Origin: Odiellus spinosus
Taxonomy: Eukaryota > Arthropoda > Arachnida > Opiliones > Phalangiidae
Assembly (NCBI GenBank): GCA_963920705.1
Contig: OY987226.1
Coordinates: 23,114,136 to 23,178,135 of the forward strand
Direction: 5' to 3'
DNA: 64,000 nt
This document shows, piece by piece, positions 5,161 through 36,472 of the stretch (position 1 is its first letter; each line of letters starts with the position of its first letter). A program made the position numbers and the translations under genes. Under the pieces are notes generated by a model that made no database searches, was not told the DNA's origin, and was given only the letters and a program-made list of their open reading frames with translations.

Positions 5161-6325
5161 ATAATTTTGATCTAGTATAGCTCCCAAAAAAAAATTTCAC
5201 TCAGTCAAATTTAGAACTCTGAAATTTAAGAGTTGCCAGATCGATACGAGAAGCGAGTGGGCTTTGATACTCAAATTAAGAGTAGCGTTTTTGGTTCCAT
5301 TTTTTGAACTTGTACAAAAAAAATTGTAGAAATATCGGTTTATATACAATCCTGGATTTATTTAGACATGCTTTTAGTTATTTTTGAAAGGTAAAATTTA
5401 TAGAATTCTTTTATTTTCTAGCATGTGTTAGGTTCAGGATTTGCTTGTTTATGTTGTATAATTAGGAAAAGTCAATGGAGGTTGGCGCGTTGGGCAGTAC
5501 CCCAATTTTTAGGCTAGGGTTGAATATATTTTACTTTTTGAAGTGTCTTACAGATTATATCAAAAAACAATGGGTAAGAAATTGTAAAATTAAGAATGTT
5601 GGGCATTTAGTTCGACTCTTAGCTAACAAAAAATGAGTTAGTCTTTGGAGAGTAAAGAAATATTGAAAACTGGGGTACTCAGGCTCGCAACCCTTGGAAT
5701 TGTATTCAGATTTCTCAAGCTTATAGTGACAAAATAATTAAAAAATGTGTTTTTCTTTGAAATCACCCTTATTTCAAAAATAAAATAATTTAAAAAATTT
5801 TGGTTTTTTCTGATATGGCAGGAAATTCGTACAGGGTTGCATTTTGGCCCGAAATCTCGCCTTCTCTTAACTTGCAGGGGCCTAATACATAAAGTTATTG
5901 CTGCACTGTGACTTCCTTTATAAAAGAAAGAGAAGTTGGTGAAAGAGGTTTCCAAGACTTCTTGAAGAAATCATAAAGGCCCCATCATCAGCTTTTGCCC
6001 CTTTAAAATCCTTTCTTTATGCACACCAAGGTTCTGCCATAGCTTTTCTCACCTACATTGGCCCTTCAAGTTTTTCATTTGTTTGTGTTTCAGCCAATGA
6101 GTGCCCGTTAGCAATGTACAGATTTTACTATAAGTAGAGTAGGTCTTGGCGAGTTTACGATTGTGGTGCAATGTAGTTGATTTTACAATTTTACAATTGA
6201 TAAAAAAAATGGGCTCCAACTAGAATTTTGAAAAAGTATTCCAAGAGGAGAGTCTAGTTTAAGGGTTTGTACAAGAAGCCGTTGACTTATAGTACACAGT
6301 GACTCAGTGAGGTAATTGGTGTAAC
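5161..6325. other. 3' flank of the ERR-like gene, no gene recognised
   Basis: AT-rich sequence without a splice-bordered open frame or a repeat I could pair. It probably contains the 3' UTR and intergenic DNA. Confidence 0.4.
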
Positions 6326-6640
6326 CAAGAATAGATTCAACACAAGAATATCGAACCTAACGCTAGTTTCGAACGGGAGGAGCTTACTAGATTTGACGTT
6401 ATATGCATTATGATTTTCACCCTGTCACGAGCTTTCGAGGGCCGCGACAGAGAGCTAGCTCTACCGGCAGCTATCCCGCAGCCTGATATCCTCCCCCCCC
6501 CCCCGCACTTATCGTAGAAAACAGCCAACCGCTTCCTGCGCACGTGACATGAGGTGCGGCGTAAGACCTCCGTAGGCTCCATCCGCTTGAGACTAGCGCG
6601 CAGACAAAGGTATAGCTCTTCCATATTCTTGTGTTGAATC

Positions 6641-7344
6641 CAGTGGCGGCGGACGGTTCTTATTTTGGGGGGGGGGGGGACATTTTTCGTTAAAGAACTT
6701 GAAAACAAGTTGCTCAAGAACAATATACCTGAAGGCTATGGTTGTACCAAGAAGGATCAGACAAGGAGAGGAAAAGTGGGGCTGCGTTGAGTTAGAGAGA
6801 GAAGAGCCAACCTCCCACTCGGTTGGAAAGGTGGATAGGAAATTCTCGAGGTAAACTGTTGTCACGTGGTCGCTAGCGTCGTCGGCTACTACGCGTCTCA
6901 TAAAGGATCCGTTTTACCCACGTGACAACAATTTACCACGAAGCAACTCTACCCCCGTCTGTCCCCCGTTCTCCCAGAGTGGGAGTTTAGGTCGACGCAG
7001 TAGGAACCGCGCCGTTCCCACTTTTCCTCTCCTTGTCTGATCCTTCTTGGTTGTACTATCGCTCTTTTACAGACGGACTCGCGTAGAAATAAATCATTTA
7101 CCTTATTTAAAGAGAGTCTCTTTATAATTTTTGTTATTATATTATATTATTTTCTTAAAATCTCCAAACAGGTTGAGATTATAGACTGATTTTTCTTATA
7201 ATTCATTGAATTCAATTTTATTCTGAGATTAATCAGAGTATTGACTGAACAATTTGGGGAGGGACACGTATATTGGTTGTCCCCACCTGGTTTAATTGAG
7301 GGGGGGACAATGTCCCCCTGTCCCCACCCGTTCCGCCGCCACTG
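6641..7344. mobile_element. hAT-like non-autonomous element with 8-bp TSD
   Basis: TIRs CAGTGGCGGCGG and CCGCCGCCACTG. The flanks GTTGAATC (6633-6640 and 7345-7352) form a perfect 8-bp duplication. The CAGTG start plus 8-bp TSD is the hAT signature. It contains long G runs just inside the TIRs and a later insertion at 6748-7049. There is no transposase; it was mobilised in trans if at all. Confidence 0.85.
6748..7049. mobile_element. CAAGAAGGATCAG MITE, copy A, 7-bp TSD (innermost of the nest)
   Basis: Left end CAAGAAGGATCAGACAAGG, right end CCTTGTCTGATCCTTCTTG, flanked by GTTGTAC at 6741-6747 and 7050-7056. The whole ~300 bp is an imperfect palindrome with CACGTG motifs and the G-rich string gggggacagacggggg in inverted form. 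It is highly similar to copy B at 30459-30750. Confidence 0.85.
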
Positions 7345-7504
7345 GTTGAATCTATTCTTGGTGTAACACTGTGTGGAAAAGTCAAAAACAAAGGAGTTAC
7401 ACATTAATCTATTTTGTCAATTCTGCTATGAAAACCTACTTTCAAAATCATATTCTAGCCTTAATAAAGACACAATTCCAGACCTTGGCCTTCCACTATT
7501 TTAA

Positions 7505-7626
7505 AGCAGGTGGTGCTTTCCTTTACCATAGGCAAGAGAGGCCTATCAGGTCCCATTGATTCCTACCTTTAGCGAGTCGGATTTGGTGAGCAGCAGGAAG
7601 AGACTTTCACAGGGGCACCATTTGCT
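7505..7626. mobile_element. TTAA-flanked MITE, AGCA family, short diverged copy
   Basis: TTAA at 7501-7504 and 7627-7630; TIRs AGCAGGTGGTGC and GCACCATTTGCT. The interior keeps 'cccattgattcctacc', comparable to 'cccattggctcctgcc' in the copy at 175-349. Confidence 0.6.
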
Positions 7627-7630
7627 TTAA

Positions 7631-10079
7631 AGCAGACGCTTTAAAGCAAACAAACTGTAAGCTATATGCCCAGAAGTATTTTTATGAAGTTTCAGGTAGG
7701 GTGAAGTAGGGTGCAATGAAAATCCTTTTACAAAATGATTGCGGGATCAATTTAGCAGGCCTGTGCATGCTCATTTCAATGCACATCGGAAGATCATGCA
7801 CAATGAAGGGAATTTTTTCCAAGGAACCGAAACTTCAAAACTGCTATGACGTAAAACACTAGATTCGATTGTGGTAGAAAACGGCTACTTAAACTGACCC
7901 AAAATAAATAAAAAAAATCGGAGCATGCACAGTCCTTCTAAAAATTCCGTAGGCATTGGCGGGACATATACCTGTAATAATGAAAATTTTAGGTTTTTGG
8001 GTATGGCATCCATTGTTGTTTAGATGGCAAGTGATTACATAAAGAAAAGTATGCCTTAGTTTATGTATGTAAAACAACTTTGAACCTAACCAGGGTTGGA
8101 TTCTTGCTGTACACTTTGGCGAAGTTAACATTTAAACCCCAAAAAAAATCTCAATATCTCTTAAATCCTAATATTACGAACAAAAAAATGACAATTTTCT
8201 GACCTCGTGTTTTCTCCTTTGGTTCCAGTAAATTTTGGGATGTAATGAATAATGCATCGAAGTTCATCTTACGTTCAATGAAATATAAATCAACTGTTAA
8301 ATGCATAAGAAATTTTTCTACATGTTTGATGGATTTTTATACCTGCAATTGTATTGCTGGATTTTCTTTTGATTTTTGCTTGGAGGTAAAGGCTTATCAA
8401 AGCTGATTACTTCGTTCCTTTCACTCCTCAAAGTGGTAGAACAACTTCAGCCCCCTGGCAAGTGGGCAAGAAGAAATATAATATCCTGGATTACAACTGA
8501 ACAAAGCAGGTTAAAGATAGCGCCAAAGGAATGGCGATTGAAACGAGAGCTTTTAGGCAAAAAAAGTGTCACTCAAACTTGATTTTCATAAGAGAAAACT
8601 TGATTTTCATAAGAGAAAACCAAGAAATAAAAATTATTTTAAAATTCAAAGAGCAAATTATTTTACCCACCAACAGAGCAGGTTTTTCATCTTAGACGCA
8701 TCCTATATACTGCTAAAACTGTCCTATTTCGAAAATTACGTGAGGTGAGCATGAGGATTGGTTTACAATAATTGTTTTAAGAAAATTGATTTACGCCTCC
8801 CTTCCCCAAATCAGAGTGTGTGATCCTCCAATCAAAAATGTTGTGTATCATATTCCTGCATGTGAAATATACCAGTAAAATTGAAAGGTATCAATAAGAG
8901 TTTCCACCCAATACCTCGTTTAATGAGCCCCCATCCAGGCAATGCTGAAAATTGTTTACCATATCACTCCCTCTCTTCTTGGGGAGAGTGCCTAAACCCA
9001 GCGATATTTCACCCTCTGGGTATCAAGCGTAAAATCGAGGCATATTTCCTCCATCTAGAGGTTTTCCCTTCATCTGTGTTGTAGCTGATGACTGATATCT
9101 TGGACCTGTGATTAAAAATAGGTATATGTTCTTGGAAAGGGGGACAACGGCTAAGGATGAAGTAAGGGTGTGTTTTAGAAGAAATGTCTGTGACTGGAAA
9201 TAGCCTCCCTTGGGATCAATTCATAATCAAACCTCTGAGTTTTTTCTGAGATTATTAATGAGAACCTTTGATTACCTGGAGTAGTTTTCCATATTTTAGA
9301 TAGTAATTGGTCTATGGGAAGGGGTAATACTGTTCCATAAATTTAGACGAACGAACATGACCAAAACATTTTATCTTTAAATTGTTTGGAAAGCTTCCTG
9401 GGTGGAAACTTCTAGTGATCAACCCCTGACTATATGTAATGGCCAATCAAAATGACTTAACTATCCCAAAAAATTAAACAATTTGCCTTTATAAAATTTA
9501 ACTCATAAATAACACAATCGTCAAAGACATTTAAAAATGAGTACCTTTTCTCTGCGAGTCACTTTCAATAGATTGTTTTAGGTATTCAGTAAAAAGGTCA
9601 TGGGGCTAGATTTGTTTATTTTACATTGGTCTTTTTCAAAAAGTATCTGTAATGGTTATAGTTTCCTAGGAAATATGGCCAATTTTCTTGTGGGGGTAGA
9701 ATTTCTTTTCAGACATGAAAGGGCAGGTCCATCGAAGTGGATGCTCTCTACTGTTGAAACTGAGCGAGGAATTGTCTTATAGAATTTTCTAGCCATCTGT
9801 GCAAGGATTTACAAAATTTGTTTGACTTCCCATTTTTTAAAGTAAGACATTAAAAAGTAACATATACGGAGATTGTTTTCCAAAATTTCCCATTTTCAAT
9901 ATAGATTGACTTTGCCTGAAATATGTTTATTGAATGACTTATGGAGGGTTTTTTACCGCAAGTGGCTGCAGTCATTTTGCAAGATGTTGGATTTTCCTGA
10001 AGTGATTGACTATGTGATATTATGTAAATCGAACGCCTATTATAATGGTAGTAATTCTATATATTTCAATATTTATAAT
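7631..10079. other. Intergenic, no gene recognised
   Basis: Only short open frames with no recognisable protein and no splice-bordered exon. A small direct duplication of 'cttgattttcataagagaaaa' occurs at about 8578-8618. Confidence 0.35.
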
Positions 10080-11377
10080 GGGTCATACCATGCAGAAACG
10101 ACCAGTCGGAACACCATGGGTCGGCGGATTTTGATGAAAATTGGTACAGAGGGTACTTTACCTATATAAAGACCAAATCTAAGTTTTCTCTGAAAAATAT
10201 TAGAAAGTTTTTTTTTTTTTTTACTACACCCTAGAAAAATCATTTTGGTACCTTTTGGAAAATATCCAATAAATACCTTAATTTCTTAACTAATTCAATC
10301 AAACTTGGAAATTATACGTAATATAGGCTGGCAAAAACGTTTAGCTACTCAATATTAGCGTAACTGTTTTGGTTCTTGAGTTACAGAGCCATATTTGCGG
10401 AAAAAAATCTTTCGGGGGTACCATTTTCCGGCCAATAGCAAAAAAGTTTTTTATTAATGTCTATAAATTTAGAGCTTGGCAAGACCTTTCCAATGATATA
10501 CTAACTTTTATGGGTATTTGATTCGCAAGTCCTACAAACTTGTTTTAAATTTCCGTTCAAATTTGGTATATTAAAAAAAAATTGGTATTTTTTATTTGAT
10601 AAATTTGAATGATAGATGGGGCTAGTGAGACTAAGATGACTTTTAGGAGTGTGTTTTAAGAGTGCAGACGATTATTTTCAAGATTCAACGATTTCGTGGA
10701 GACACCACATTTTTTGTCGAAATTAGAGTCAACAGGTAGTAAAAATGACTGACGTACGTGGAGTTTCCTATTTGTTCCATTGGTGAAATTAAGGACGAAG
10801 CTTGACATAAAACAACGCAGTGTTCTTCTTTGGGAATATATCAATTTAATGAGCTTAATGATGTTGAACAACAACTACTAGTGATCCGATCAAACACAAC
10901 TGAACAACTGATCAAAACAGTATGCCACCATCATCATGCTTTACTTTTGGGCAAGTATGAATTCTACCAAAGAAAGTGTTGCGACCCCTTTAAATCTCAC
11001 AGGAAGCCGTAACTAGTAAGTTATGCATTGAAATACCATGTATATACGTCATACGCTAAGCTTTTGCTTGCAAATGTTTCCAGGTAATCTTGAATCCCTT
11101 GTCTATTGAAGCATGAATTAATCAACCTCACAGGGATAATTCTCTTTGGTAAAATGATTGTTCGAATCGTACCCTGGTGACAAAAATTGTCTACACCGGA
11201 AGCTTCTAGCTACCTGTACACGGGGAGGGTGAAATATTGAAGGGGAAAAAACTAAAGCAGACGACGCTCTCATGGATTAATCCATTTATTTAATATTCAA
11301 CCTCACACGTGTAGACCAAAATAACTTAAAATGAACATGGAAATGTTACTTACAACAAACAATCTCCAATAAACTTA

Positions 11378-12114
11378 TGGCGAATTGCACTGGGACTTTT
11401 CGAGCGCTCCGAGAGCGCTCGCGATGAGATTTCGTGTTCCACTGGTGACCTTAGAGCGGCTCATGGCGAGATCCGCGTGTTCCACTGGCGATTTTGCTCT
11501 CGCGGAGAGCGCTCTGAGAGCAAAAATTTCGCTCCGAGATATTCGACAGATCGACGGATCTCGAGCGGTTTTCGTGATTTTTTTTATAGCGATTTCCACT
11601 GGGAAGCTCCGAGAGGACTCCGATTAAAAATGGCGGAACTAGATAGGAATAGCAAAATTCGGGCTGCGTATTTATTTTTGGAATCGTCTTCGGATAGTTC
11701 CGACGAGGAAATTGTAGCTAATCTTTTACAGCAAACATCAAGGATAGTAAAAGGCCCTAAAATAAAGGGTTATATTGAGGATGTTGTTCATTCCTACTCC
11801 GAAAATGAAGTCCTTTACGCATAGGCTTATCATTTAAAATAATTTGTTTAAAATAATTTATTCAAGGGTTATTTATTATTTCGTAAAAATGAACCATCAT
11901 CGTTAACAAAAAGTTTCTCGAACACAACATGATTCGAATCAGCCATGGCTTGCCGCGAAAAGCTTGCCTTGAGAGTCGCTCTTATAATTGAGTCGTGTTT
12001 CACTGGGAGATTCGCTCGACCACTCTCAAGCGAATTCTCGACCGATCTGTGACGTCAAAATCGAGTTCGGAGCCCTCTCTAGGAGCGCTCGAAACGTCCC
12101 AGTGGAAATCGCTA
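11378..12114 (+). mobile_element. PIF/Harbinger-like element with TTA TSD (innermost of the second nest)
   Basis: Ends TGGCGAATTGCACTGGGAC and GTCCCAGTGGAAATCGCTA, flanked by TTA (11375-11377 and 12115-12117), as expected for PIF/Harbinger (TWA targets). Subterminal CACTGGGA-like strings recur inside (about 11482, 11595, 12000), together with CG-rich 'gagcgctc' hairpins. A short ORF lies at 11630-11824. A related degenerate end occurs at about 30280-30330. Confidence 0.8.
11630..11824 (+). pseudogene. N-terminal remnant of a Harbinger-type transposase (64 codons)
   Basis: ATG in AAAATGGCGG, then an acidic, Ser-rich start (ESSSDSSDEEIV) and GPKIKGYIEDVVHSYSENE, then a stop. The pattern of an acidic leader followed by a helix ending ...YSENE just before the expected catalytic region suits the start of a PIF/Harbinger transposase. 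The rest of the protein, including the DDE residues, is missing. Inference from layout and location within the TTA-flanked element; no search was possible. Confidence 0.45.
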
Positions 12115-15100
12115 TTAAAATTAAAAAAAATAATCTGACTGAAATGAGAAGTTGAAAACCAAAATCTCCGAAGCTTTGAAAATGTACAAAAACTGCTGGG
12201 AGATGGCAAAGTTTCAAAAATCTATTTCCGGATTTGTATAGGTAAGGGGGTAAAATTGAGGGGCCGAATAAAATTTATGGCAGCCATGTTGGAAACAAAC
12301 ATCTTCCAACTACTAGAATAGTAAATCGTACCAGAGAAAATTATCCCTGTGAGGTTGATTAATCCATGATTGAAGAAGCAGCCATACTGAAGAACACATC
12401 TGCAAAAACTGCAGGAACTGTAACCAGATTTTTCAAGATGAACTTAAACCTTCAACATCTGCAACTCCCAATACCTGTAGTCAATCTCAAAGCTCATTAA
12501 GCCAGGAAAGCTCCGTGTCTGACAGTGTATTTGAGTTGTCACAAAGAGTCCAAGGTCAAGTGCAAATGGAGTCTCTATATGAAACTCTCCTGAACTTGAA
12601 CACTTCGCCAATTACACGTCAAAGCTTATCATCATATCAACGACCAGCATATGCCAAAAGAAATGTGGATGAAGTTGCTGAAGGAGTGAAGATCAAGCTA
12701 ATAGAACTGCTAAATATACCAGAAGAAGATTATGAAGCCAAAGAAAGATGATTTTGATGAGCTTATCACTCAACTTAAGCAAAAGTAGATCAATCTACAA
12801 TACAGAAAAAGTGTGAACTTCTTACCCTAGTTGCTTTCTCGTGGTCAATTAAGAAAATTTGCGAAGAATTTAAAGTATCAACACATTTGGCCAAAAAATC
12901 TCATAAATTGAAAAAAGAAAAAGGTCTACTCCCTGAATAAGAGAAGAGAATAGGCAAGACTTTCTCAGGACACTGTTGATCTTGTAAAAGGTTTCTACGA
13001 AGATGATGACATTTCTCATATTTGCCCGGGAAGAATGATTTTGTCTCAGTTCGAATCGAAAACAAAAGAGTTCATAAGCAAAAAATACTTTTATTATCGA
13101 ACATCCAGTTTAAATCTAAATACCCAGATGCAAAAGTTGGCTTTTCAAAGTTTTGTTCACGAGGACCGAAATGGTACATAACCATAGATTCAAGTGTTTC
13201 CCACTCAGTCTGCGTTATAGAAATACACCAAAACATGAAATTAATTTCTATGGCACGTCCTGGACATCCAGACTACAAACATCTCATGACAAAATTTGTT
13301 TGTGACTTAAATAATCGTCAATGTATGCTCCATCTATGTGGAAACTGCCCTGGCCTTGAGGATTTCGAAATATTTTTAGAATCGTTGTTTGATGAAAATG
13401 AAATTGATCTAGTGGACACAATTTCTTACAAACAACGGACCCATAAAGATGCTCAAACCAAATTACAAGAAATAGTAACGTCAGTCAGCGAATACATTGA
13501 TAATTTCGCCACTAAAATGGAAAAAGCTTTAGAGCACCATTACATTTCAAAAGCACAAGCCTCAAATTTTCGACTATTGAAAGACGAGTTGCCTGAAAAC
13601 GAAGCTATAATAGTCTTAGATTTCGCGGAAAACTATTAATTTTTGGTACAGAATGCGGTGCAGGGCTTCCACTGGGAAAATCTGCGAGCAACGTTACACC
13701 CATTTGCGGTTTATCACAAGAAAGACAGCAGATTGCAATGCTTTAGTGCGTGTATCATAAGTGATGAAATGGAACACTAATTCAACAGTCCACTATTTCA
13801 TCAAAACGATTTTGGAGTATCTTAAAACGGCTCTTCCTCACCTAAACCAAATCCACTACTTAAGCGACGGTGCGGCTTCTCAATACAAGAACCGAAAAAA
13901 TTTCATTATCCTATGTCACCAAGAAATTGATTTTGGAATTTCCGCCGAGTGGAACTTTTTTGCCACGAGCCATGGGAAGAATGCTTGCGACAGTATTGGA
14001 GGAACAGCTAAACGACTCGTAGCCCGAGCTTCCTTGCAGATGCCAATTACCGATCAAATAGTCACGCCGAGACAATTTTTTGAATGGGCTGATAAAAACA
14101 TTTTTTTTTTTTTTCGTCTGTAAAAATGACGAGAAAAGGCCCAAAGAGCTATTGGAGGAGAGGTTTTTAAAGATATCAACTGTGATGGGAGAGAGAAGTC
14201 ATCACAGATTTGTCCCTAAAAACAAGTATGAAATCAAAATGTTCAGAACTTCAGATACTTTTAGTACCAAGGTAGCTGTCGCGAGAAACGAAGAAGACCC
14301 TAATATAAATTTTTCGGACATGTCTGTGGGAAACTACGTGGCTGCTGTGTACGATAAGGAATGGTACCTAGCTGTTGTTGTGGCCACCTTTCAAGAAGAA
14401 AACGATTATCTCTTGAAATGTATGGTGAAGGACACTTTTTCAAACTTTCTCACTTGGCCTGAAAAAAAAAAAGACTTAATGACATACTATGTATATTACC
14501 TGAACCTCAGCCTTCTAGCACTTCTGGAAGTGCTTCACATTCAATAATGATTGCACTAAGCAAAGTTCAAGAATTGTTTAAAAGAATTTGATACAATTTT
14601 TTTTTTTTTCTAAAGTAAATTATTTGCAGTTTTTAAAAATTACATTTTCAGGTCTTAGGAATCAAATACCCAAAAAAGCTAGTATATCATTGGAAAGGTC
14701 TTGCCAAGCTTTAAATTTATAGAAATTAATAAAAAAAATTAGAGTTACACTTTTTGCGCTATTGGCCGGAAAATGATACCCCCTGCCATGTGAACCAAAA
14801 CAGTTACGCTAATTTTGAGTAGCTAAAAGTTTTTACCTGCCTAAATTACGTAAAATTTCTAAGTTTGATTGAATTCGTTAAGAAATTAAGGTATTTATTG
14901 GATATTTTGCAAAAGGTACCAAAATGAGCTTCAAGGTACACGATTTTTCTGGGGTGTAGTAAAAATTGATGTAAAATAAAAACTTTCTAATATTTTTCAG
15001 AGAAAACTTAGATTTGGTCCTTATATAGGTAAAGTACCATCTGTACCAATTTTTATCAAAATCGGCCGACCCATGGTATACCGACTGGTCGTTCTGCATG

Positions 15101-15651
15101 GAATGAACGACCCTAATCAAATCATTGCTATAACTTTCTATAAATCGATGAAATTTTCTGTTTTCCCATGATGTTTTGGGGATTTTGTTGTGGTCACCCT
15201 GTTGTTGGTTACTTATGCTACCATTTAAACCAATGATCTTGTGGATAACAAAAAAAAAAAAAAAAAAAAAAAAAAGAATTACCCAAACTATACCACTACT
15301 CTCTCCTTCAGTAGTAAACTTGAGGCTATAAAACTCACTCAACAGATTATTTTAGTCCAATTCTAGCAGAACTTACATTTAGTGGTAAGTAGATAAGTGT
15401 GGATTCCAACAAATGAAATGTAATCCTTTACACAAAATTAAATGACCATGGTAGCTAAAACTGATAATTTGACTAAAGAGACTTCTATTTGCTAAACGTA
15501 TTTTTTAACCATGAAGTAGCAGTCTCGTTAATTTCATTCTTGTTATGAATTAAATATAATTTTTTTATGTCTAAAATTACTAAACAGTCATAATTTTGAA
15601 ACATTTTAATTTAAAATCGTACATACATACAATTTAATTTACAAATTAAGG

Positions 15652-18600
15652 TTATATTAGCTTGATTTTGCCCGTTTTCAATAACGTAGAAACAGGTTTG
15701 AATCGCATTATGTGTTGGCCACCTTTCACAAAATCAACAATTTCTTCACTGAAATTCAATTAATGTTGTTACATAACTTCAGATATGGTTGGAGAATACA
15801 TGAATGAACCAAATATAATTTAACTACCCTTACTGAAAAACAGTGATCTGAAGAGGTCCTCAAGAACACTACAAAAGTCTTGGGGAAGTAAAACCTCTTA
15901 AGACTTTTTTGGTAAGGGTACTTCTCAAGGTAATGGAGGGACTCAAATATTTGAGAAAAAGTGGCTATAATTATGGTTTCTGTAGTTATAACGCTTATGG
16001 AAAAAAGTTAGTCAGATCTGAAGAGGTCTTCAAGAACACTACAAAAGACTTCCCCAAGACCTCGAAAGACTAACTTTTTTTGGTAAGGGAATAAAGACCA
16101 TCCTGTTCCATATAAAGGCGCGAGCGCGTTTATAAGCTAGCAAGAAACCTAAATTTATTGAATGATCATTTATAAAGGAGCAAAAACTGATAAATTACAA
16201 CAAGTGGTGGCGGCATCAAATTGGGGTTGATAGTCTTGCGAGAATTTTCGAAATTGCGCTGTCACGTTTCTTACTTTAACCAATAATAGCCTATGTTCAG
16301 TGACGCTTTATATATATATATAAAGTCAACTACTCTTCGTTTCTACAAGTGTGTGGAAGGCACCATGTCGTTGAAACAGTTAAACGAGCAACAAAAGGAC
16401 ATGAAAAGACATTTAGACAGTGCCATTTTAAAGCAATCATCGGATATCCAATAACTGTACAGCCAAATCCGTTGTCATGAGCTTTTAATGATAATACCAA
16501 GCCAGTGTGAATTTCTCGCTCGCTTGTAAATGCGATTGAAAGAAGTTTTCAGAAACATGAAATCTACACAGATTTAAACAAACTAAACAAAAAATGCATG
16601 CTAAAGCAAATTGAATAAAATTAAGCTCCCCGTGACTCTTTTTGTTCCAAAAATGTATCGACAATTTGAAAGCTTTACCCATCAAAAGAAAATTTATCAG
16701 AAATAAAGGTTTAGTCCTTGAAGCCATAATAACTCGTGGGAATGTTTCTCAAGGTAACCAACACTAGCTTTAGCACACATTTAGCCATCATGGTAGCAGC
16801 TAGAGGTAAATAGGTGATCCGTTTAAGTTTTTTAATCTTTATATTCCCCCTTTAATAGTCACTACCCCTCTAGCTACCACTACCCAAACTATCGAACAAA
16901 ACTATAACAATTAGAGTCTAGGGTATTTATAGTTAAATGGTCTTCGGATGTACAGAACCAAAAAGAAGTATGTTCCTTCAAGAGATTAGACAACCTTTCA
17001 CAATTCCAAAGTACTATTTGTCGATTTTGGTTTACTTGGTCATAATTTTAAGCTCTAGCTCACTTCGCTATTTTTAAAGCAGCGTCAGAGACTAACACAG
17101 ACTCTATAGTTAGGATATTTTCTTAGCAAACGACAATGCAGAAACGCCCCTCAATGCATTTCCTATTGTTCCACGAACCCAACCAAGTGAACCGCCATTG
17201 CCTTCATATTTAATTGTTCAGCACATTATTTTTAATGACCACATTCATTTCACTTCATTTTCTACTAAAACTCTTAAGCCTAAGCAAATTCCAATTTACA
17301 TCTTTTAGCTTATTGCCACATTATCAGTGTCATTAGTTGAGAAACAATAGAGAAACTTATCTACTGAAACGAGTGATTGCTTGCTACAAAGGACCATTTC
17401 AGATTTGGAAAATTAATTTTGAGATATAAACTAACGAGTTTCTAGAGAAATGTCCTTGCATTTTGTTTTAAGCATTTCCGCTCGTGTTAATAGTCCCTCG
17501 ACTTTTGATAAATTCGCACCTACAATTCTTTTAAAATTTTTTTACTGTACTGAACAATTAAATATCTTGATCTAGGCAATGGGGACTCGCTTGGCGGATT
17601 ACCGCAACAAGAGGAAATACAAAACGTTTATCCCTACCCATTCAGTTACGCTTCTGTAGTGTCGTCTGCTATGAAAATATCCGTGCAATTCCCCATAGGT
17701 TGCAACTTGTTGGCGGTCTTTGTTAGTCTATAACAGCTTAGTTCTCAATTACACTGTCCCATATCAATCGCCAATCCTACAAGGTTGATATAAGAGACAA
17801 ACATTTTACAAAATTGAAAAGGAATAGAGGTAAAAAAGTACCTGGTAAAATTTCCCGCTTGCTCTTCAATCACCACACCACCCGCATTGTTCTTGACTTG
17901 AAGAAAAATGTATCCATCTAAATTTGGTTTAGTAGCTGAAAAAGGCGAAAAAAATCTATTCAATATGGCAAAAATATGTGGCTTTTATAAGTCCATTATT
18001 TTCCTCTGTTTCTATTCATAACAACCATGGATATACAACACCCCATATTTAGAGATATGCGAGCACTGGCCAATGGCGGAGATCAATACTCTTGGCACTA
18101 CTTGGGTGTTAATGAATAAATTCATTTGCAGTTTTTAAGATTACCAGCTTTTGAGAGATGAAAGTTTTGCAAATTAGCGGGGAAATGGTCCACAACATTA
18201 TTTTTCAAGAAATCCTCCATTAGAGCAATGTACCTAAATGATAAAACAATTACATTTGTTTTAAAAAAAACCCTTGGAACAATGCTTGGTCAGAGAAATA
18301 AAAATTCTAGTAAAAAATGAAATTTGAATAAAATTTTCGGAAAGATCGTTAAAACTAAGTATGCCTGTATACATGTAAAAAAAATCAGCACTCTCGAAAT
18401 ATTTGGAAACTATATGTCTTAGACATTGTAACTCCTCATAATGGTTGTGTGACTAAAGCTAACAGTTATATCGAGCAAGTGGTTGCATCTTTAGGATAGT
18501 TCTTCTCAAAAGTACTTATTGCAGAAAATTTTGGCTTTTTTAGAAACTTTTATTCAATCTCTTTTTGCTACCTTTCTGCAAAGTAAAAATTTGAATATTG

Positions 18601-21600: not shown

Positions 21601-23888
21601 CTACTAATATGAAGCATGAAAATATGCATGTGCTTGCTGAGGAGGCTGGAACAAGAGTGAGCTTAACTTCTCAGCTCCCTCTAAGGAATATACTCCGCTT
21701 TACATGCTAGAGTTTGACTGCCACCTAGGTAGTTGGTTTCTAATACATATATAACAATGGCCAATCACGGAACTAGAGAGCGGGGTTTGGACAAGAAATT
21801 TCTGATTATTTTATCTTTATTCATAACTTAAAATTTTTCGAGGAAAGTCTATGATAAATCCAAGGTAATCGCGAATAATTTTCCGATTATTTTTTATGAT
21901 TAACTGATTAACTGATAGTTGTGGATTATTTTGTCCAAACCCCGATCTCTACACGGAACTGGGTTAGTCTTTGTGAAATTGTGATGATCTTAAAGAGTTA
22001 TAAAAAATCCACTTTGACCAGGTAATTTGTAGATTTGTAATTATAAATAAACAATATGAAAATGAACAACTAAAGCCAAAAAATATATTATTGTAGCTGT
22101 TTCCAATAAAATAATAAATCACTCGGAAAAGCAATTTCTGGTTTATTTTACGATAAGCCTTATTCGGGGCTATTTCTGTTTGAAAATAAAGAACGCGTTT
22201 TTGGCTGGAAAGTTGCCGTATTTACTCTGATGGAGTGCACGCCATGAGGGCGCAAACTCTTTTTTAATGGTGATTGGTCATTGAATTTTGTTTAGATTTA
22301 AATAGTTTATAGATTTGTTTTTATTGATTTTTTGAGGGTAACTATTGATATTTTGAACTAACATATTTATAGATTTGTTTCATATGAAGTGGTCCAACTA
22401 AATCATGGTTTAGTTGTCCCTTTAAGTCTTAATAATACCCACCCATGAAAAATATTTCGAGTTATGGTTGGGATTTTAGCCCAAAAGTGTCAAAGCCATG
22501 TCAGCTGGGGTTCAAAGACCCTAGTTGGGATTTTGTACCATTAACTAGATGGTTCCGAATTGTTAAATTTATGATGACTTAGCTAACAATGTACCCACTA
22601 GTAAAGTGATAAAAAACGCACGTACAAAAACTTTTTAATGTTAATCTGTTACATAATAAGTTTATGGACACCACTGCGTAGCAACTATAATCAACTTAGG
22701 GCATTTGCTTCAAGTTCAACCAATCAGATAGGAGACTGCTACCTCTGAGAACGGTTTAAAAAAATTGGAAGAGTGAATGAAGTCTAACTACAGGGGTATC
22801 TATTCATTAGTTTAGTCTAAAATAGGCCTAATTCACTAGAAAAGCATTTGGCTTTAAAGGCCCACACAACTTGAGTACACGCCAGTTTAAAAATGATCTT
22901 CCCTTGCACATACAGCCTAGCATAGACCAGTAACTTGTTTGGCCTAGTTTGAGTTAGTCTGAAGAGGTCTTGGGGAAGTCTTTCATTTTGTTAATAAATA
23001 TTAAACACTTCCCCAAGACTTTTGTAGCGTTCTTGAGGACATCTTCAGATCAGACTAACTTTTTTTTGGTAAGGGAATCATAGTGAACACGAATAATTGT
23101 CTTTTGGAATTTTTAAAGCCTGGATAAATGCATTAAGCTTTCGCTACAACCTAACTATAAAAACGACAAACTGAAAATGGCTCTCATGACGTGATTTTTC
23201 GGAAGTAAATATATTTTTTACATTTTCCGCGGATTTTCCGCCCAGTGACAAACTAACTTAATACTTAAAGGAAAGGTAAAAAGGATACCCAAGTGTTTTT
23301 TATAGATTTACTAGCGAAAATAAGACTTGTTAGTTCTGAAAATCATTTAAGTGTCATTCAAAAGAGATAATATTTTGGTAATAAATTGAAAGCAGGCACT
23401 CTGACCAATCACAAGATAGCCCCAACTGGTCTAAATAAGATTACCAGAGCACTTGCTCATCGTTGTCTTTCTTGGAAAATGTTGATTTTCAGATGCATTT
23501 CAGGTACTGCACACCAAGTGTTTGAAGTGAAGCCAAAGCTGGGGCATCTTGTGATTGGTTGCAGGGCCTACTTTTGATACCAAAGTATGATTATTTTGAG
23601 ATTCAGGGACATTGTTTTACTGATCAAATTGGTCTTATATTTACTAGTAGAATCGATAATCAATCTTTTTATTTTCTCTTCATTATCTTTGTCCAAAAAA
23701 ATTGTTTTTGAGCAGAGCTGCGGCCACTTTACTGATCATACCTCAATCTGATGAATTGTCTTTCTTATGTCTCCGATATCTGGCCCTCGAAGACTTTTTT
23801 TCATGTGAGAAATTTGATCCTTTATGCAATGAACAAGTTCTTCCTCAAAAGGTAAGAGATCTGGACAAAATTTTTCATTCTGCCACAT
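15652..23888 (-). CDS. GINS4: GINS complex subunit SLD5 (GINS4), six exons, first exon not found
   Basis: Exons in gene order: 23742-23888, 21165-21218, 19043-19146, 18145-18233, 17842-17935, 15652-15748 (stop TAA). All borders are GT-AG and the phases join without a break, giving 194 residues; human SLD5 has 223. Matching blocks: MWQNEKFCPDLL, DQISHMKKSL, TIHQIE|LNRITYMLSSYL, KK|IEKFGAYIIEKE, SLMSPDERRYAIE, HFPANLQNFHLSKA, TKPNLDGYIFLQVK, and the C-terminal beta-domain GQHIMRFKPVSTLLKTGKIK. SLD5 is one of four GINS subunits, which join Cdc45 and Mcm2-7 as the replicative helicase. An acceptor (TTTTCAG) directly precedes 23888, and in the alignment the Met there sits at an internal position, so a 5' exon of roughly 25-30 codons lies upstream. 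The introns host several MITEs. Confidence 0.92.
15827..15918. mobile_element. Tc1/mariner-like MITE, 92 bp, in the last SLD5 intron
   Basis: Ends CCCTTACTGAAAAA and TTTTTTGGTAAGGG with flanking TA on both sides. It belongs with copies at about 15991-16090, 22945-23078 and 58403-58592; all contain 'ctgaagaggtc...aagaacactacaaaag'. Confidence 0.75.
15991..16090. mobile_element. Tc1/mariner-like MITE, second copy, adjacent
   Basis: Degenerate left end (CGCTTATGGAAAAAAGTTAGTC) pairs with GACTAACTTTTTTTGGTAAG at the right. It lies only ~70 bp from the copy at 15827-15918. Confidence 0.65.
16306..16325 (+). promoter_or_regulatory. TATA-like palindrome upstream of a small ORF
   Basis: A 20-bp palindrome, CTTTATATATATATATAAAG, preceded by a CCAAT box at 16280-16284, sits 40 bp before an ATG at 16365. 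Spacing fits a core promoter on either strand; it may equally be simple-repeat sequence. Confidence 0.35.
16365..16454 (+). CDS. Small ORF, 29 residues, unknown
   Basis: ATG in the context CACCATGTC, a good initiation context, then a charged helical-looking peptide beginning MSLKQLNEQQKDMKRH and ending before TAA. It lies within the last SLD5 intron on the opposite strand, just downstream of CCAAT and TATA elements. No family recognised. It could be a genuine micropeptide, the first exon of an undetected gene, or the remnant of one. Evidence is limited to the promoter layout. Confidence 0.25.
   Translation: MSLKQLNEQQKDMKRHLDSAILKQSSDIQ
20165..20357. mobile_element. TTAA-flanked MITE, AGCAACTGGC family, best copy
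   Basis: TIRs AGCAACTGGCAGCTCTGGAG and CTCTAGAGCCGCCAGTTGCT, flanked by TTAA at 20161-20164 and 20358-20361. Inside are 'ccttgccaaaggcaggagcc' and 'cttgcctttggtaagg'. It lies in the SLD5 intron between exons 21165-21218 and 19043-19146. Confidence 0.8.
22945..23078. mobile_element. Tc1/mariner-like MITE, third copy
   Basis: Left 'gttagtctgaagaggtcttg', right 'cttcagatcagactaactttttttt' plus GGTAAGGGA. The right half is better preserved than the left end. It is inside an SLD5 intron. Confidence 0.6.
23366..23592. repeat. Foldback element in an SLD5 intron
   Basis: Arms at about 23373-23430 and 23530-23590 are inverted copies; the core 'accaatcacaagat' and 'atcttgtgattggt' is perfect. A small open frame across it is a by-product. 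It lies 150 bp from SLD5 exon 23742-23888. Confidence 0.6.
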
Positions 23889-24198
23889 CTGAAAATATTA
23901 GGCGAGTGACTCTTACAGATGACTAGAATGTATTTAAGTTGAAACTAAGTATATTTCAATACATATATTTGTGATTAAAACTTAAGAGATTAAAATACTG
24001 TAGTACAATAATTTAATAATGACCTGGTTGGTTCAGTGACAACAAATGCTCTCCAGCTGCATTGAGGCCATACAAAAATGTGATTAAAATTATTTTAATT
24101 AGTTTAAAATCATGAAACAATGTTTAGAATAGAGTAAAAAAGACAAAATTCCACTTGGTGTACAATAAAAAGGTTTTTATTTTAAAATCAATTAAAAC

Positions 24199-24246
24199 TC
24201 GACGACTAGTTTCGCCGCCCATTCGGGGGCTTCTTCAGGTCTGAAA
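24199..24246 (-). ncRNA. Hammerhead ribozyme motif of the Penelope-like-element type
   Basis: Read on the minus strand: ...GAC CTGAAGA, then a stem II (AGCC CCC GAAT GGG C GGC), then GAAAC, a minimal TA loop, GTC, and GTC. This matches the type I hammerhead core: CUGANGA, stem II, GAAA, a very short stem III (AC/GU), and cleavage after UC. GAC before the core can pair with GTC after it as stem I. Such minimal hammerheads are known from the terminal repeats of Penelope-like retroelements. No reverse transcriptase or GIY-YIG sequence was seen nearby, so this would be a fragment of a terminal repeat. Confidence 0.65.
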
Positions 24247-24384
24247 GTGATTTTAAGTAAGACAGTATCAGGCCTGAGAAGTGGTTCATTGTTTATGAAT
24301 CAAAAGGTAGTAAGTAGTTAGTGACCAATAACAAAATTCTACTAGGGGGTCGTTTTCAACGAACATATATTATAGGGGTTAAGG

Positions 24385-24482
24385 CAGTGGCGTATTTAGA
24401 GGGTTTGATGTTTTGTGGAATAAAAAAAAAGAAAAATGTGCTGCCCAGGGTGGACCTCCCCAAGCCCCTAGATACGCAACTG
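24385..24482. mobile_element. Short hAT-like MITE
   Basis: CAGTGGCGTATTTAGAGGG at the left pairs with CCCCTAGATACGCAACTG at the right. Flanks GGTTAAGG / GGCTAAGA agree at 6 of 8 positions, suggesting an old 8-bp TSD. Confidence 0.55.
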
Positions 24483-25876
24483 GGCTAAGATGTAGAGTCT
24501 TTCACCATTCATAGTATTGGTTCCACAAGAATGCAAATCCAACCTACCCTAAATTAGTGTAATTTGGTTCAAAATGAAATGGAGTTAAACAATAAGCAAA
24601 ATAAAATAGGTCCCCATAAGTCCCATAGAACGTACAGCATTTGCTTCCAAACTTGGCGCAATAAAAGGAGGAAAGAGTTAATAAGGAGTTAGGGAAGTCA
24701 AGTGGCCTGATGATGTAGAAACGGATTCATGTTAACTATGCCAGGACGCTGATGGCTCAAAGTTTGAAGGCAAGAGGATTCTCAAACTAACAGACTATCA
24801 GGGGCATCTTCAATTTAATTTAGCTAGTGACTTTATTACTATTTTATCTACAGCATCCTACCAAAGCTTTCATTATTGACTGTGATAATGCGAATACAAT
24901 TACATGAAACTACTAGTCCTAACTGCTAGACATTTGATTAATCCCCGACTCTCAGCTTTGTATGCGCAGACAGACAGACAGGGCATAGCCATTTGGCGTG
25001 GGCGTAATAGTAACAAAAGATTTAAGTAAATAATAACAAGTGTATAATTTAGTAGACCTACAGGTCTGGGATAGAGATAAGACTAGATTTGACAAAAAGT
25101 ATGGTGACCATCTTTGGAATTTACTGGGAAATGGGTCGATTTAGTGGCCAAAGGAAAATTTAGGGACTTTCAGTGAGCCATGTGTTCCACTTCAAATTAC
25201 CCCATTTTCTCATATCCGTCTCTCCCATTATCCTTCCTCCATGGTCTTAATTCTAAATAACAACATATTTTCTGCCAACAGTGAAATATAGTTAGTTTGA
25301 ACACTTTCATTATTTTAAATATATCTTACATATGGAAGTTAATTTTTCATGCCATCCATATACAATGTTTAGTGAGATTTTGAGAAATTTGAGGAATGTT
25401 CGTCTCACACTTGTTTTAAAATTGTCTCTTTTCATTACTATTCATTGAAATGGTTAACAGATAGTGGATTTTAACATTATACTTCAATTCATAACCTTAA
25501 ACCTTGGCTTATGAGAAAAGAAAAATAATGACACATTTTTTGACAGGCTTAGTCTGGCCAGTGTGGAACTTCAGGCTTATCAATATGAACTGTCCAAAAT
25601 TGGCAGCCATAAAGAATCCAAAGTTAGCTCGTGCTGTTCAAAGTAAACAGTATAGTGTGCCAAGTAAGAAGACCCACGTGCAATCTGTATTGTTTTAAAA
25701 ACTTTAGGAACTTATAAAGTGAGGACTATGAGTTTCCTCTTCTGTTACATTAATTATGGAAAATCATTTTTCCTAAAAGTGTTCAACCTAAGCTAGGCTC
25801 ATCCTAGGGGGATTTGGAACTTTATACCAGTCATGAAAATTTTACTAAAAGAAACAAGACTTAAAGGATTATAAAT
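24483..25876. other. No gene recognised
   Basis: AT-rich DNA between the SLD5 5' region and the THAP gene. The missing first exon of SLD5 may lie in here, but I could not identify it. Confidence 0.35.
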
Positions 25877-26631
25877 CTAAAGGAGTTTTGGAATATATTG
25901 TGCAGGTTCGGGTTGCATCGAACTTTCTCCACTCTCTTGGTAATTCTCAAACATTTGATCGCCCGCAACTCCATCATTTGCAATTGAATTTTTTATTGAT
26001 AGAACTTCAGGTTGTAGTTTATTTGGTAAATGATTTTTAAGAATGCTCTTTAGTGCATCTTCAGTTTGGAGCTGTTCAATTTCAGAGTCATTTGTAAGAC
26101 TGGTTGTTAGAAGTTCAGCATGAGGTGGTTTATTTCTAGGATTATTGTCTCGTGATTTAAGATTTGTTTTTGTAACCGTTTTCTTCAATTGTAATGTAGG
26201 ATATTTATATTTTGGAATGTCTGCCTGGGGTTCAGCCTCATTTCTACAGCGTGGTGGATTTCGGCCTACTAGAATCTTTTTTTCAACACTCCAAGGGAAG
26301 ATTGAAGGTACAATATTGTCTTTCAACGATCGTCGCCGTTCCAAAACAAACCACTTGCAGTAATCAGTCTTGATAAAATGATTTGAACATACATATATGC
26401 TTTTGGTGACTTTAAAGCATTTACATTGAACACGTTTTATTTTGAGTAACCACTTTTTTAACTTTTTTGTCATTTGGAAATTTATGGAAGGACACCTAAA
26501 ACACGGCAAGCGTAGAAGTGCAGTAGGTTAAAATCGCAATTCTCAAGTTTAATGTAAATTTTTACCTGCTTGCCAGATGAAGATTTTTCGCCAACTTGTT
26601 TGCATTGTGGTACGCAACAGTATTTAAAGAT
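25877..26631 (-). pseudogene. THAP-domain protein gene, frameshifted and apparently without its start codon
   Basis: Two parts: 26566-26631 encodes the first half of a C2CH zinc finger (KYCCVPQCKQVG...), ending at a GT donor; 26495 down to 25877 begins after TTTTAG with VSFHKFPNDKK and continues, in another frame, with LKKWLLKIKR...VCSNHFIKTDY...RRRSLKDNIVPSIFPW and a 120-residue Ser/Asn/Glu-rich tail. Together this is a THAP DNA-binding domain (C-x4-C ... C-x2-H, the invariant W and the final FPW). Two lesions are visible: an extra A in the run at 26463-26468 shifts the frame, and the expected ATG reads ATC (26629-26631) with a stop just upstream. Either a host THAP pseudogene, or a live gene with a sequence error and a missed start. 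Confidence 0.75.
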
Positions 26632-26976
26632 TTATACCACTATTTAGACTTATAAATGCCTAATAAAGTAGAGGCAGAATTGGGTTTATGCTGTTGTTGG
26701 GTTACCTAACCATATGTTTTGGAGGTGTGTACAAATATCATTGGTCGGCGTCTTTTCAAGTAATCAGGGAAGAGTAACAATTCTAAATTTCCAATGCTAA
26801 ATAATAATGAAGGACTGATGGCAGGAGCAGGCTTATAAATAAACCTAGTCAACAAACCGGTGATGGGCGCGCTCCTTGCAGCTCCGCTCACTTGGAGTAT
26901 TTTGAGTGATGAGGTTTTGTTGTGGAATGTGAGAGGAGCGCGAGAGGAGAGGTTCTCAAATTCATAGGAGAGGAGA

Positions 26977-27345
26977 GGCATATTTTTAGGGACTCCAAGA
27001 GATGAGTAGAAATGAGAGCCTACTTTTTTGAGGCCTTCAAGAGATGAGTATAAATGAAAGGCTTTCTTAGGGACTCCAATATTAGAGTAGAAATGAGAGG
27101 GTCATTTTTTTTGCACCCCAAGAGATGAGTAGATATGAGAGGTTATTTTTTGGGGATTCAAAGAGATGAGTAGAATAGAGAGGCATTTTTTTTTTTTTTT
27201 TACATCTCCTAGAGATGAGTAGATATGAGAGGTTATTTTTTGGGGATTCAAAGAGATGAGTAGAAATGATAGGCATTTCTTGGGGATTCCAAGAGATGAA
27301 CAGAAATGAGAGGCATTTTTTTAAACTCCAAGAAATGAGAGATAA
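26977..27345. repeat. Degenerate minisatellite built on 'gagatgagtagaaatgagagg'
   Basis: About seven irregular units of 40-60 bp, each with 'ccaagagatgagtagaaatg' and a T-rich string. It is bracketed by a direct repeat 'gctccttgcagctccgctca' at about 26872 and 27354. Confidence 0.8.
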
Positions 27346-27901
27346 TTTACGAGCTCCTTGCAGCTCCGCTCATTTGGATATTTTGTCTATAAATTTTAAA
27401 TAAAAGAGAGGAGACGATATTATGATATGATAGGTGAGCCCCTCGAGACCTTGCAAAAAAGACCTTCAATTGAGGAGCGCTGTTATTATTTGACAGAGAA
27501 AGAGCGGAGAAGAATAAGAGCTCCAGAGTTTTTTAATGAGAAGATGTTAAATTCAACTTTGGCGCCATCTTAGTTAATAGGAAAGGAGAGAGGAGAGCTA
27601 TCTTGGAGGGATAACACATTAGGGGAGGGGCTATAACTTAAGATTTTATGGGAGAGAGTCAGTGCCTTTAAGTTAACAGCGAAATGGGGCAGGAGCGGAG
27701 TTCATCTCCAAGCTCAGCAAAAAGTCGTGAGTTGGAGCGTGACAAGTAGGTAAAATTGAGAAAATGCCCATCACTGGAACAAATCAGTTTATTATTTGCT
27801 TGGAGCATTGGACTTTTTTTTTTTTAATTCAAAAATTAAAATCGTGACATATCCCAAGGACAAGTTTTTAATATTTATTCGAACAAGTTTAGTTTGTCAA
27901 T

Positions 27902-28971
27902 ACCAGGTATCACCATGAATGTATTCATACCCCATGAATGTCTAACAGTATCATTAGCCTTTCTACCATGTGGGTCAGGGATGGGCGGTACCCTTCTACA
28001 GAGTTACGCGTGCTACGTAGTCACCAATCAGGATCGTGTCACTCGGAAGTGTAAACAACAGACATTGAGTTGGAGATAAAATAGTTTTTTTTTTTTTGGG
28101 TCATCACCGTCGGTTAAGTTAACTAGGTTTGGATCGTAATATTTCAGTTTAAATGAAAGATCTTCTTAGTTATGTGAATTGCTAATGAAAATTCTAGCTA
28201 GAGCGTGCAATGTTTTTACCAATTTAAACGTTAAAACGCCTTAGTATCAATGGTTCAAGGCTTAGTGTTACAAGGTGAATTTGGCATGATGCCATCATTT
28301 TAACAGGCTAGAAAACCACCCACAATTTTGTTACTTATCACAATTAATGCTTGAAATGTTTTTATTGGAAAAGCGTTCGTTAAGATGAAAATTCCATTTT
28401 CTTGTGCAACAAATGCAATCAACTAGAGCCGGCGAGCGGCCGCCAACGCCGCCGCAGCGCGTGATCGACTCTTCGAGGAGGCTATGTTTAAAAAAAAAAA
28501 AAAAGTTTTCGGCACGTGACCAACGAAGCCCCTCCCATCCCTGAATAGGTAGTTCGACTATCTAATGCTGTTAGATCTAGGAATATAATACTCCAACACG
28601 AGCTGCGCGATTCATCTACGGCTGCCTCGGCCGAGCCAAAATCGACGGACATAGTAGGTAGCGCTCGAAATATGTAATAAAATTAGTCTGCTATATAGTA
28701 TTTCAAATTAAAATGGGGAGATATTGCTGTTTCGATAACTGTCGTAGCGATTTTAGCTGCCAGAAGAATTTAACTTTTCATCCAGTTTTAAAACCTGGAC
28801 GAAAATAGTAAAATTGTTTCTCAATTTTTCCGTTAGATGGCTCTCTATAGTTATGTCACGCACTTTTTAGTATGCCGTTCATGCAACCCTTGTTTTCTTC
28901 TCCAGAGGTCCCCCTTCATCCTCCTTGGTTAGATATTCATGGGGTATGAATACATTCATGGTATCACTGGT
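27902..28971. mobile_element. Inverted-repeat element with ~45-bp ends
   Basis: Left end ACCAGGTATCACCATGAATG continues to 'tattcataccccatgaat'; the right end is the inverted counterpart ending ...GTATCACTGGT. No clear TSD. It contains a THAP-like mini-ORF (28713-28808) and a GC-rich patch (28425-28470). A P-like or other THAP-bearing transposon remnant is possible; inference only. Confidence 0.6.
28713..28808 (+). pseudogene. THAP-like N-terminal fragment, 31 codons
   Basis: The frame starts MGRYCCFDNCRSDFSC, includes LTFHPV, then stops. The CC-x3-C spacing and the F-H pair match the beginning of a THAP finger, but the second half (C-x2-H, FPW) does not follow. It is located inside the inverted-repeat element, consistent with a transposase remnant. 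Confidence 0.4.
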
Positions 28972-29106
28972 CCGGATTATTTGAAAAAAAAACTTATTTC
29001 AAGGCCTGGTCAGGACTCAGTAGCGTTAGTTTGAGACGAGGCTTATTTAACCCGCGTAACATAAGATAATAAACCCTTAATATTCTTAAAAGAAAAGTAA
29101 TTCTAC

Positions 29107-29570
29107 CTCTTCAAATTTATTTAAAACTTCAGCGGTTGTTTGTAACTCTTCTTCTTCATCGTGATCACTTATTCTTAAAGAATCATCCATTAGTATGAAT
29201 GTTAGTTTCAAAGCTAAACAGAAACAACGAGCCTTCTTGAGTTGAACAATTGAAGATTTGCAGACTGCACTACTGGCAATCAGGGGCGGAAATAACACCT
29301 GATAAATTTTCCAAATATCCCATATCTTTTCTTTTTCGAAAGGGGATCATTGGGCGTTTGTCCGATAAGCAAAATTACTTACTGGTACTGGAGATCTAGT
29401 AGTGTCAGATAATATTTTGAAATGTCCAATATCTTTGAATTTGTGAAGGAGACTACCAGACGGTTGTCCAATTAAAAAGCATTCTTCTTTCCGTCTCTGC
29501 CGGCGGTATGACTGCTGAGTTGACCACAGGCGAAATGTTTTCTTTCTTGTTGGACAATCAAGTAACTCCT
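29107..29570 (-). CDS. Two internal exons of an unidentified gene
   Basis: Exon 29383-29570 (acceptor GTAG|AG, donor CCA|GTAAGT) and exon 29107-29298 (acceptor ATCAG|GTG, donor GAG|GTAGAA) are separated by an 84-bp intron. Phases fit: the first begins with two bases of a split codon and ends in phase 0, the second is exactly 64 codons. The protein reads ELLDCPTRKKTFRLW..., ECFLIGQPSGSLLHKFKDIG, LSDTTRSPVP, then a hydrophobic stretch (FCLALKLTFILM) and an acidic tail HDEEEELQTTAEVLNKFEE. The composition looks coding, but I do not recognise the family. Neighbouring exons were not found; the element at 27902-28971 lies where downstream exons might be. Confidence 0.5.
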
Positions 29571-30458
29571 CTACTCAAATTCATAGACTTTTAGTTATCG
29601 GATAATTCGGATATTATCAGGCAATGCCAGATTTTCCGTTTCAATAAGTACTTTTCTTGTGAGATAAATGTCCAAAAATGAAAAGTTATGGGACATTTGG
29701 AAAATTTAGCTTATTTCCGTTTTTGGAGTTGACAGCCACGGAATACTTTATACGGAGGAAGGAAATTTTGAAAGTATCATAATAATTTTCCTTTGCGATA
29801 CATCCTCGTACCGTGAACGTTCCCGTGCAGCAATTACTGTAAATTAGCTCGCGAAAGTAAGGCTGCCAATGTTGACCCGTTTTGTAACTAACGATCTGTA
29901 ATGAAGCCTTTGATCAGCATGCTTATAGTGGAAGGCTAGCGAAGCACTTCGCGTGAAGCCCTTCTCAAGCCATCCACTGTACTATACTTCGTGAAGCATG
30001 CCTACAATGAATGAAGCCAGTAATAAAGTTAAGTCCCATAGTCATATACTCTCATGCTGTTGATAAATTTGATATCAATTACTGATTTATTCTTGATTTT
30101 TTCCGCGATTTCAAATATTAGTTAGGCTTAAAAATTATTTGATACATAAAATAAATAGGGCTAACTTTCATATCTAAAAAGTTGTAACGTCCGAGCAAAA
30201 GAAGTAAGTTATATGCTTATTTAAACACGATATTAATGAACGCATTCCTAGTTCATAGCACCCAGGTGAAAATACCTTGTCTAGGGCGATTTCCATTGGG
30301 GTAGCCATGGAGCAATGAGATTTTTCTTTTAGCTGCTCTGACCGCTCACGGAGCACCTCGAAATCGACTGACGCAGTCCATTTTGGATTACTTCGGGAAC
30401 AGCGCAAAGAATGATAAGATTAAATAGTTTTGTTAAGAAACCTTGATGTTATTGTTAT

Positions 30459-30750
30459 CAAGAAGGATCAGATAAGGAGAGGAAAAGTGGGAACGGCGCG
30501 GCTCCTACTGCGTCGGGCTAAACTCCCACTCTGGGAGAACGGGGGACAGACGGGGGTAGAGATGCTTCGTGGTAAATTGTTGTCACGTGGGTAAAACGAA
30601 TCCTTTATGAGACGCGCTAGCTAGCGACCACGTGACAACAGTTTACCTCGAGAATTTCCTATCCCCCCTTTCCACCCGAGTGGGAGGTTGGCTCTTCTCT
30701 CTCTAACTCAACGCAGCCCCACTTTTCCTCTCCTTATCTGATCCTTCTTG
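30459..30750. mobile_element. CAAGAAGGATCAG MITE, copy B, 7-bp TSD
   Basis: CAAGAAGGATCAGATAAGG ... CCTTATCTGATCCTTCTTG flanked by perfect TTGTTAT (30452-30458 and 30751-30757). Near-identical in layout to copy A at 6748-7049 but inserted in the opposite orientation, as shown by the order of the internal G-rich and CACGTG parts. Confidence 0.85.
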
Positions 30751-30757
30751 TTGTTAT

Positions 30758-33714: not shown

Positions 33715-36241
<2,527 letters not shown>

Positions 36242-36249
36242 ATGTATGT

Positions 36250-36430: not shown

Positions 36431-36472
36431 ATATGTATGATATTGTTTGTTAGATTAAGATAAACCATTTAA

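Follow-up and report, generated by a model that had tools for sequence, protein, structure and literature searches.

Inverted-repeat elements in the window

The window, a stretch of 64,000 nucleotides from the genome of Odiellus spinosus, contains six MITEs (E1 to E6) that lie between perfect 7-bp target-site duplications (TSDs) and have no coding capacity. A hAT-like element lies among them.

6326..7360, no strand assigned: E1, MITE, 323 bp minus its insert; perfect 26-bp ends CAAGAATAGATTCAACACAAGAATAT; TSD GTGTAAC at 6319-6325 and 7361-7367
6641..7344, no strand assigned: hAT-like non-coding element, 704 bp; ends CAGTGGCGGCGG; 8-bp TSD GTTGAATC
6748..7049, plus strand: E2, MITE, 302 bp; perfect 33-bp ends CAAGAAGGATCAGACAAGG...; TSD GTTGTAC at 6741-6747 and 7050-7056
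11112..12368, no strand assigned: E4, 1257 bp; ends CATGRATTAATCAACCTCACAGGGATAATT; TSD ATTGAAG at 11105-11111 and 12369-12375
27914..28960, no strand assigned: E5, 1047 bp; perfect 26-bp ends CATGAATGTATTCATACCCCATGAAT; TSD GTATCAC at 27907-27913 and 28961-28967
30459..30750, minus strand: E3, the other E2-family member of the window, 292 bp; perfect 33-bp ends as in E2; TSD TTGTTAT at 30452-30458 and 30751-30757
37379..38228, no strand assigned: E6, 850 bp; ends CATGAGTGAWTCATATACGCTCC; TSD ACTATAC at 37372-37378 and 38229-38235

Elements E1 to E4 had been named in a sequence-only reading of this DNA, and all four are present between perfect 7-bp TSDs. E5 and E6, absent from that reading, were contributed by a scan of the window for 14-bp inverted ends with at most two mismatches and an adjoining exact direct repeat, for which the AT microsatellite at 32500-37000 was masked. 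The scan returned seven matches with an exact 7-bp repeat, representing six distinct elements; ten simulated sequences gave 0.3 on average, so the number exceeds chance. The sequence-only reading was right in taking these for real, non-autonomous elements. Five matches with 8-bp repeats were found in the same scan, showing that it was not biased to 7.

The six elements belong to five families. E2 and E3, which lie in opposite orientation, are the sole pair within one family, while E1 has CAAGAA alone in common with them. The three copies that had been grouped into a single CAAGAA family thus separate into one family at 6748-7049 and 30459-30750 and another at 6326-7360. The inverted ends of E4 and E6 are about 44 bp each and contain some mismatches. 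As the hAT-like element is inserted in E1 and E2 lies inside the hAT-like element, this locus represents three nested insertions. Searches of the open-access PMC literature, a scope to which Repbase and Dfam do not belong, revealed neither a named family whose ends match these nor a MITE combining CAAGAA with a target site duplication.

The window also contains other repeats and several open reading frames. At 10114-15076, inverted repeats several hundred bases long enclose frames at 12374-14547, in which no Pfam family scored above its cut-off; the whole is probably one large transposon that has received E4 as an insertion. Four more elements with inverted ends have perfect 8-bp direct repeats (21766-21959, 46580-47104, 51278-54474 and 52006-53990, two of them nested). 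Within E5, at about 28581-28930, lies a separate repeat of about 430 bp, which 24 other copies (L054-L077) share at 90-99% identity. Its short THAP-like start (MGRYCCFDNC...) was ruled out as evidence for a P-type origin of E5, since it belongs to this separate repeat and matched no Pfam family. A frame on the minus strand at 25877-26524 encodes a THAP domain (PF05485, E-value of 2.7e-7) and no P-transposase domain. No delimitable element was found around this frame, which is either a host gene or the remnant of a P-type element. An unbroken frame of 1119 amino acids on the plus strand (38787-42143), with several C2H2 zinc fingers, is probably a host gene.

Copy number and target-site duplications across the genome

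We searched the window's own assembly, which comprises 443 Mb in 286 contigs. The 24-base end of E2 occurs 4,753 times genome-wide (2,382 + 2,371), and its reversed control does not occur. Forty full-length copies of the E2 family, the best 40 of 1,053 candidates, were scored and are 98-100% identical. TSDs were tabulated genome-wide for the E2 and E6 families. Leaving aside the copy in the window, 39 E2-family copies were examined: the 7-bp TSD is exact in 36 and has one mismatch in three, in line with the TSD length given in the sequence-only reading.

One flank is common to 23 of these 39 copies, so that 17 independent sites remain, and the flanks of these 17 are unrelated. Where longer flanks of the shared-flank copies were available (the window, L004 and L005), E2 lies inside the hAT-like element. 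This suggests that the 23 copies probably represent a single insertion amplified by its host element, that is, a MITE of one superfamily amplified as the passenger of another. The hAT-like carrier has itself moved: the window's copy is flanked by the 8-bp TSD GTTGAATC, the L005 copy (1207-1903) by ATAATAAT, and no clear TSD was found in L004 (1398-2097). In two of the 23 copies, L017 and L036, E2 is reversed between the same flanks, as though its two inverted ends had recombined and turned it round.

For the E6 family, 19 full-length copies of the 40 scored were counted, with two apparent duplicates omitted and L122 and L123 sharing a flank. Eleven of these have an exact 7-bp TSD, four have one mismatch (two of which are the same duplicated site), one has two mismatches and three have no recognisable TSD. 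E5 has five related copies, four of which retain both ends; one is flanked by an exact repeat of 7 bp (ACATTAC), one by an exact repeat of 6 bp and two by none.

Coding P-type elements in the same genome

In a search for the P-type RNase H domain (PF21787), 150 of 386 candidate places were scored and all of these exceed the cut-off, so that the genome has at least 150 such domains. Three of these loci were examined at 8 kb. No ends were found at the third (L110), and at the other two the element could be delimited as follows.

L108: 5,670 bp; perfect 38-bp inverted ends CATAGACTAAGAACGGG...; TSD GTCTGTC
L109: 3,777 bp; perfect 31-bp inverted ends CGGTGCCTCCGAGATCC...; TSD TTTGAAG

Inside their own ends, the frames of both elements encode a THAP domain, the P-type RNase H domain and a GTP-binding domain (THAP, PF21787 and PF21788). 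The Drosophila P transposase (6p5a) was the sole solved structure matched by their proteins at E ≤0.01. Six more copies of the two families, picked because their frame length or score equalled that of L108 or L109, have perfect terminal 20 bases and an exact 7-bp TSD in every case, which brings the coding P-type copies with an exact 7-bp TSD to eight out of eight. The ends of the two coding families begin with CATAGAC and CGGTGCC; they differ from those of the MITEs, and one lacks the initial CA. The end of the Drosophila melanogaster P element begins with CATGATG.

P-like elements were rightly among the candidates named in the sequence-only reading. Its suggestion that the MITEs might trace an undescribed transposase is not supported, given the many P-type domains and the coding P-type elements that agree in TSD length and kind of target. 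An autonomous partner, which it had recommended looking for, was not found among 31 P-type places, 28 of which were covered with only 1.5 kb per side: none bears the ends of E1, E2, E4, E5 or E6, and the best match had 8 mismatches in 26. An end search in 30 P-type loci of 3.4 kb yielded a single 6-bp match, inside L086, and the flanks of such loci are probably too short for this search. Two candidate coding partners of E2, at C3:3902787 and C3:5260019, were ruled out because their likeness extends upstream of CAAGAA.

Target-site preference and length of the duplication

We compiled one exact 7-bp TSD per independent MITE site, resulting in 33 sites. Imperfect E2 copies (L031, L044 and L047), eight E6 copies and the shared-flank repeat copies were left out of this set. 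Position 2 of the TSD is a pyrimidine at all 33 sites (T at 23, C at 10), and position 6 is a purine at 31 (A at 28). The same pattern appears when E2 (17 sites) or E6 (12 sites) is taken alone. Of the eight coding copies, all carry T at position 2 and six carry a purine at position 6. The target preference is symmetric around the middle of the 7 bp.

The sequence-only reading had named as its own refutation a TSD of 8 or 9 bp of which one base had been counted into the inverted end. TSDs of the form G...C do permit the junction to be shifted by one base, yet the shift yields 5 bp and not 8, and in copies with a TSD such as TTGTTAT no C/G ambiguity arises. An exact 8-bp match was found in none of the 39 further E2-family copies, none of the 19 E6-family copies and none of the six additional coding copies. 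These counts refute a TSD of 8 or 9 bp. Considering also the symmetry of the target about the middle of 7 bp, it is hardly conceivable that a base of a longer duplication was miscounted into the ends.

Palindromic remnants of E2 ends

E2 ends without the MITE interior behind them gave 56 matches, many of which are short palindromes. In the genome, 88 sites fit the pattern CAAGAAGGA-(0 to 30 bases)-TCCTTCTTG and none fits its reversed control. Among the matches listed (50 of the 88), lengths of 18 and 23 bases account for 19 and 20 remnants respectively, and the other 11 measure 26-35 bases; no remnant of 36-48 bases is among these 50, though the pattern allowed for 48. Four of the 50 contribute length alone. 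The 46 listed with their sequence keep at most 16 bases of the E2 end, and up to 18 are kept at one site of the 56-match search. Most remnants are joined at matches of 2-4 bases, such as GATC, while a few contain filler or changes. Flanks were inspected for three remnants: one has an exact 7-bp TSD, one matches at 6 of 7 positions and one has no TSD.

According to an excerpt of PMC7776569, the cut made by the P transposase falls 17 bases in from the end of the element. A cut of this kind predicts the upper limit seen in the remnants, which thereby lend support to a putative P-type internal cut. We consider this support rather than proof, as most joints lie well inside 17 bases and the lengths come from 50 of the 88 sites. 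The remnants could instead be deletions between inverted ends, formed by a hairpin or by slippage at short matches, and would then be uninformative on the transposase. Consistent with such deletions, 39 of the 50 listed remnants are 18 or 23 bases long and joined well inside 17, and the TSD is absent at one of the three with flanks. Conversely, deletions between ends of 33 bases, under a pattern that allowed 48, would not be expected to stop at 35 in all 50 listed remnants (of 88), nor to keep at most 16 bases of the end where letters are available and 18 at one other site. We therefore regard this origin of the remnants as rather unlikely, though still worth weighing against the internal cut.

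Comparison with known P-type systems

A close parallel is Galileo, a member of the P superfamily in Drosophila, which according to excerpts of PMC4168063 and PMC2775673 has mostly 7-bp TSDs, with few of 8, and the consensus GTANTAC. Judging from the same excerpts, the MITEs resemble Galileo in the 7-bp TSD with its T and A at positions 2 and 6, a palindromic target and the predominance of non-autonomous copies. The target positions shared are positions 2 and 6 only, and the likeness is drawn without a comparison of end sequences. The inverted ends of Galileo are described there as very long, whereas those of the MITEs are about 26-44 bp.

According to excerpts of PMC7776569, the P element of Drosophila melanogaster has 31-bp inverted ends that are cut 17 bases inside, and an 8-bp TSD. 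Its P-type transposase is the 6p5a match of the coding relatives found here. P-MITEs of Anopheles gambiae share only their ends with P-type transposons, but P elements and P-MITEs of that species have 8-bp TSDs and their coding partners are known, unlike here (PMC1562414, as excerpted). Zebrafish Pdre2 also encodes a P-type transposase and has ends starting with CA (CATACCTGTCAAC), although these ends are 13 bp and the TSD is 8 bp in the portion of PMC10983969 that describes it.

A putative mode of transposition

TSDs of 7 or 8 bp are a feature of the P superfamily, and 7-bp TSDs prevail in the E2 family, the E6 family (11 of 19 exact) and the coding copies. At the MITE sites the target is palindromic, as in Galileo, mostly with T and A at positions 2 and 6. 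The 8-bp TSD of the classical P element is absent from all three sets; the 8-bp TSD of hAT elements is likewise absent from the MITEs and is present in the hAT-like element at 6641-7344. Based on these sequence features, E1 to E6 are quite probably cut-and-paste elements of the MITE type, non-autonomous and mobilised in trans by transposases of the P superfamily that other loci of the genome encode.

In such a process, a P-type transposase would join the CA... ends to the two strands of a weakly palindromic target (NYNNNRN, mostly NTNNNAN) with a stagger of 7 bp, and gap filling after joining would generate the 7-bp TSD. On excision, the other strand would be cut about 17 bases inside each end, so that the flanking DNA would be left with single-stranded tails no longer than 17 bases. 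When such tails are rejoined through short matches such as GATC, the palindromic remnants may be the product.

Dada inserts into multicopy small-RNA genes. It is an example of another superfamily with TSDs of 6-7 bp that might move the MITEs, as might an undescribed transposase, and in either case the likeness to P-type elements would be confined to TSD length and target. That no coding element with MITE ends was found at the 31 P-type places, and that the ends of the two coding P-type families are unlike those of the MITEs, would fit such a source. Still, MITEs and coding P-type copies agree in TSD length and in the preferences at positions 2 and 6, the remnants fit a P-type internal cut, and the 17 independent E2 sites have unrelated flanks, unlike the targets of Dada. 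A Dada-like or undescribed transposase is thus less likely than the P-type account, and in our estimate quite improbable.

The ends, the TSD length, the target motif, the copy number, the remnants and the coding P-type elements, which agree with the MITEs in TSD length and target preference, can all be read directly from the genome. From these we infer that a P transposase acts on these exact ends and cuts 17 bases inside them. Membership of the P superfamily is likewise inferred, since no coding element with MITE ends was found. The P-type manner of working is better supported than the membership, considering that the 31 P-type places, 28 of them with 1.5 kb per side, yielded no coding element with the same ends.

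Implications for the P superfamily

The kind of element described here is already known. What is of interest is that P-type elements making 7-bp TSDs, some coding and some not, occur together in a single genome; that their copy number is high in the case of the MITEs; and that the remnants, as a trace of excision, offer a test of the P-type internal cut from sequence. A puzzling combination of end and TSD length is hereby placed within a known mechanism, and the MITEs most likely represent a new and very abundant member of the P-element type of mobile DNA.

Two coding families and two MITE families studied genome-wide, with unrelated ends, all duplicate 7 bp. We tentatively raise the possibility, which we consider less likely than its opposite, that TSD length divides the P superfamily while the 17-base internal cut is kept. 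If so, the 7-bp form of Galileo would be a widespread state of the P transposase and not a peculiarity of Drosophila, and the copies and remnants found here would allow the internal cut to be mapped from genome sequence alone. Should a coding partner of the MITEs be found, this would be a good genome for studying why the duplication is 7 bp with some P transposases and 8 bp with others.
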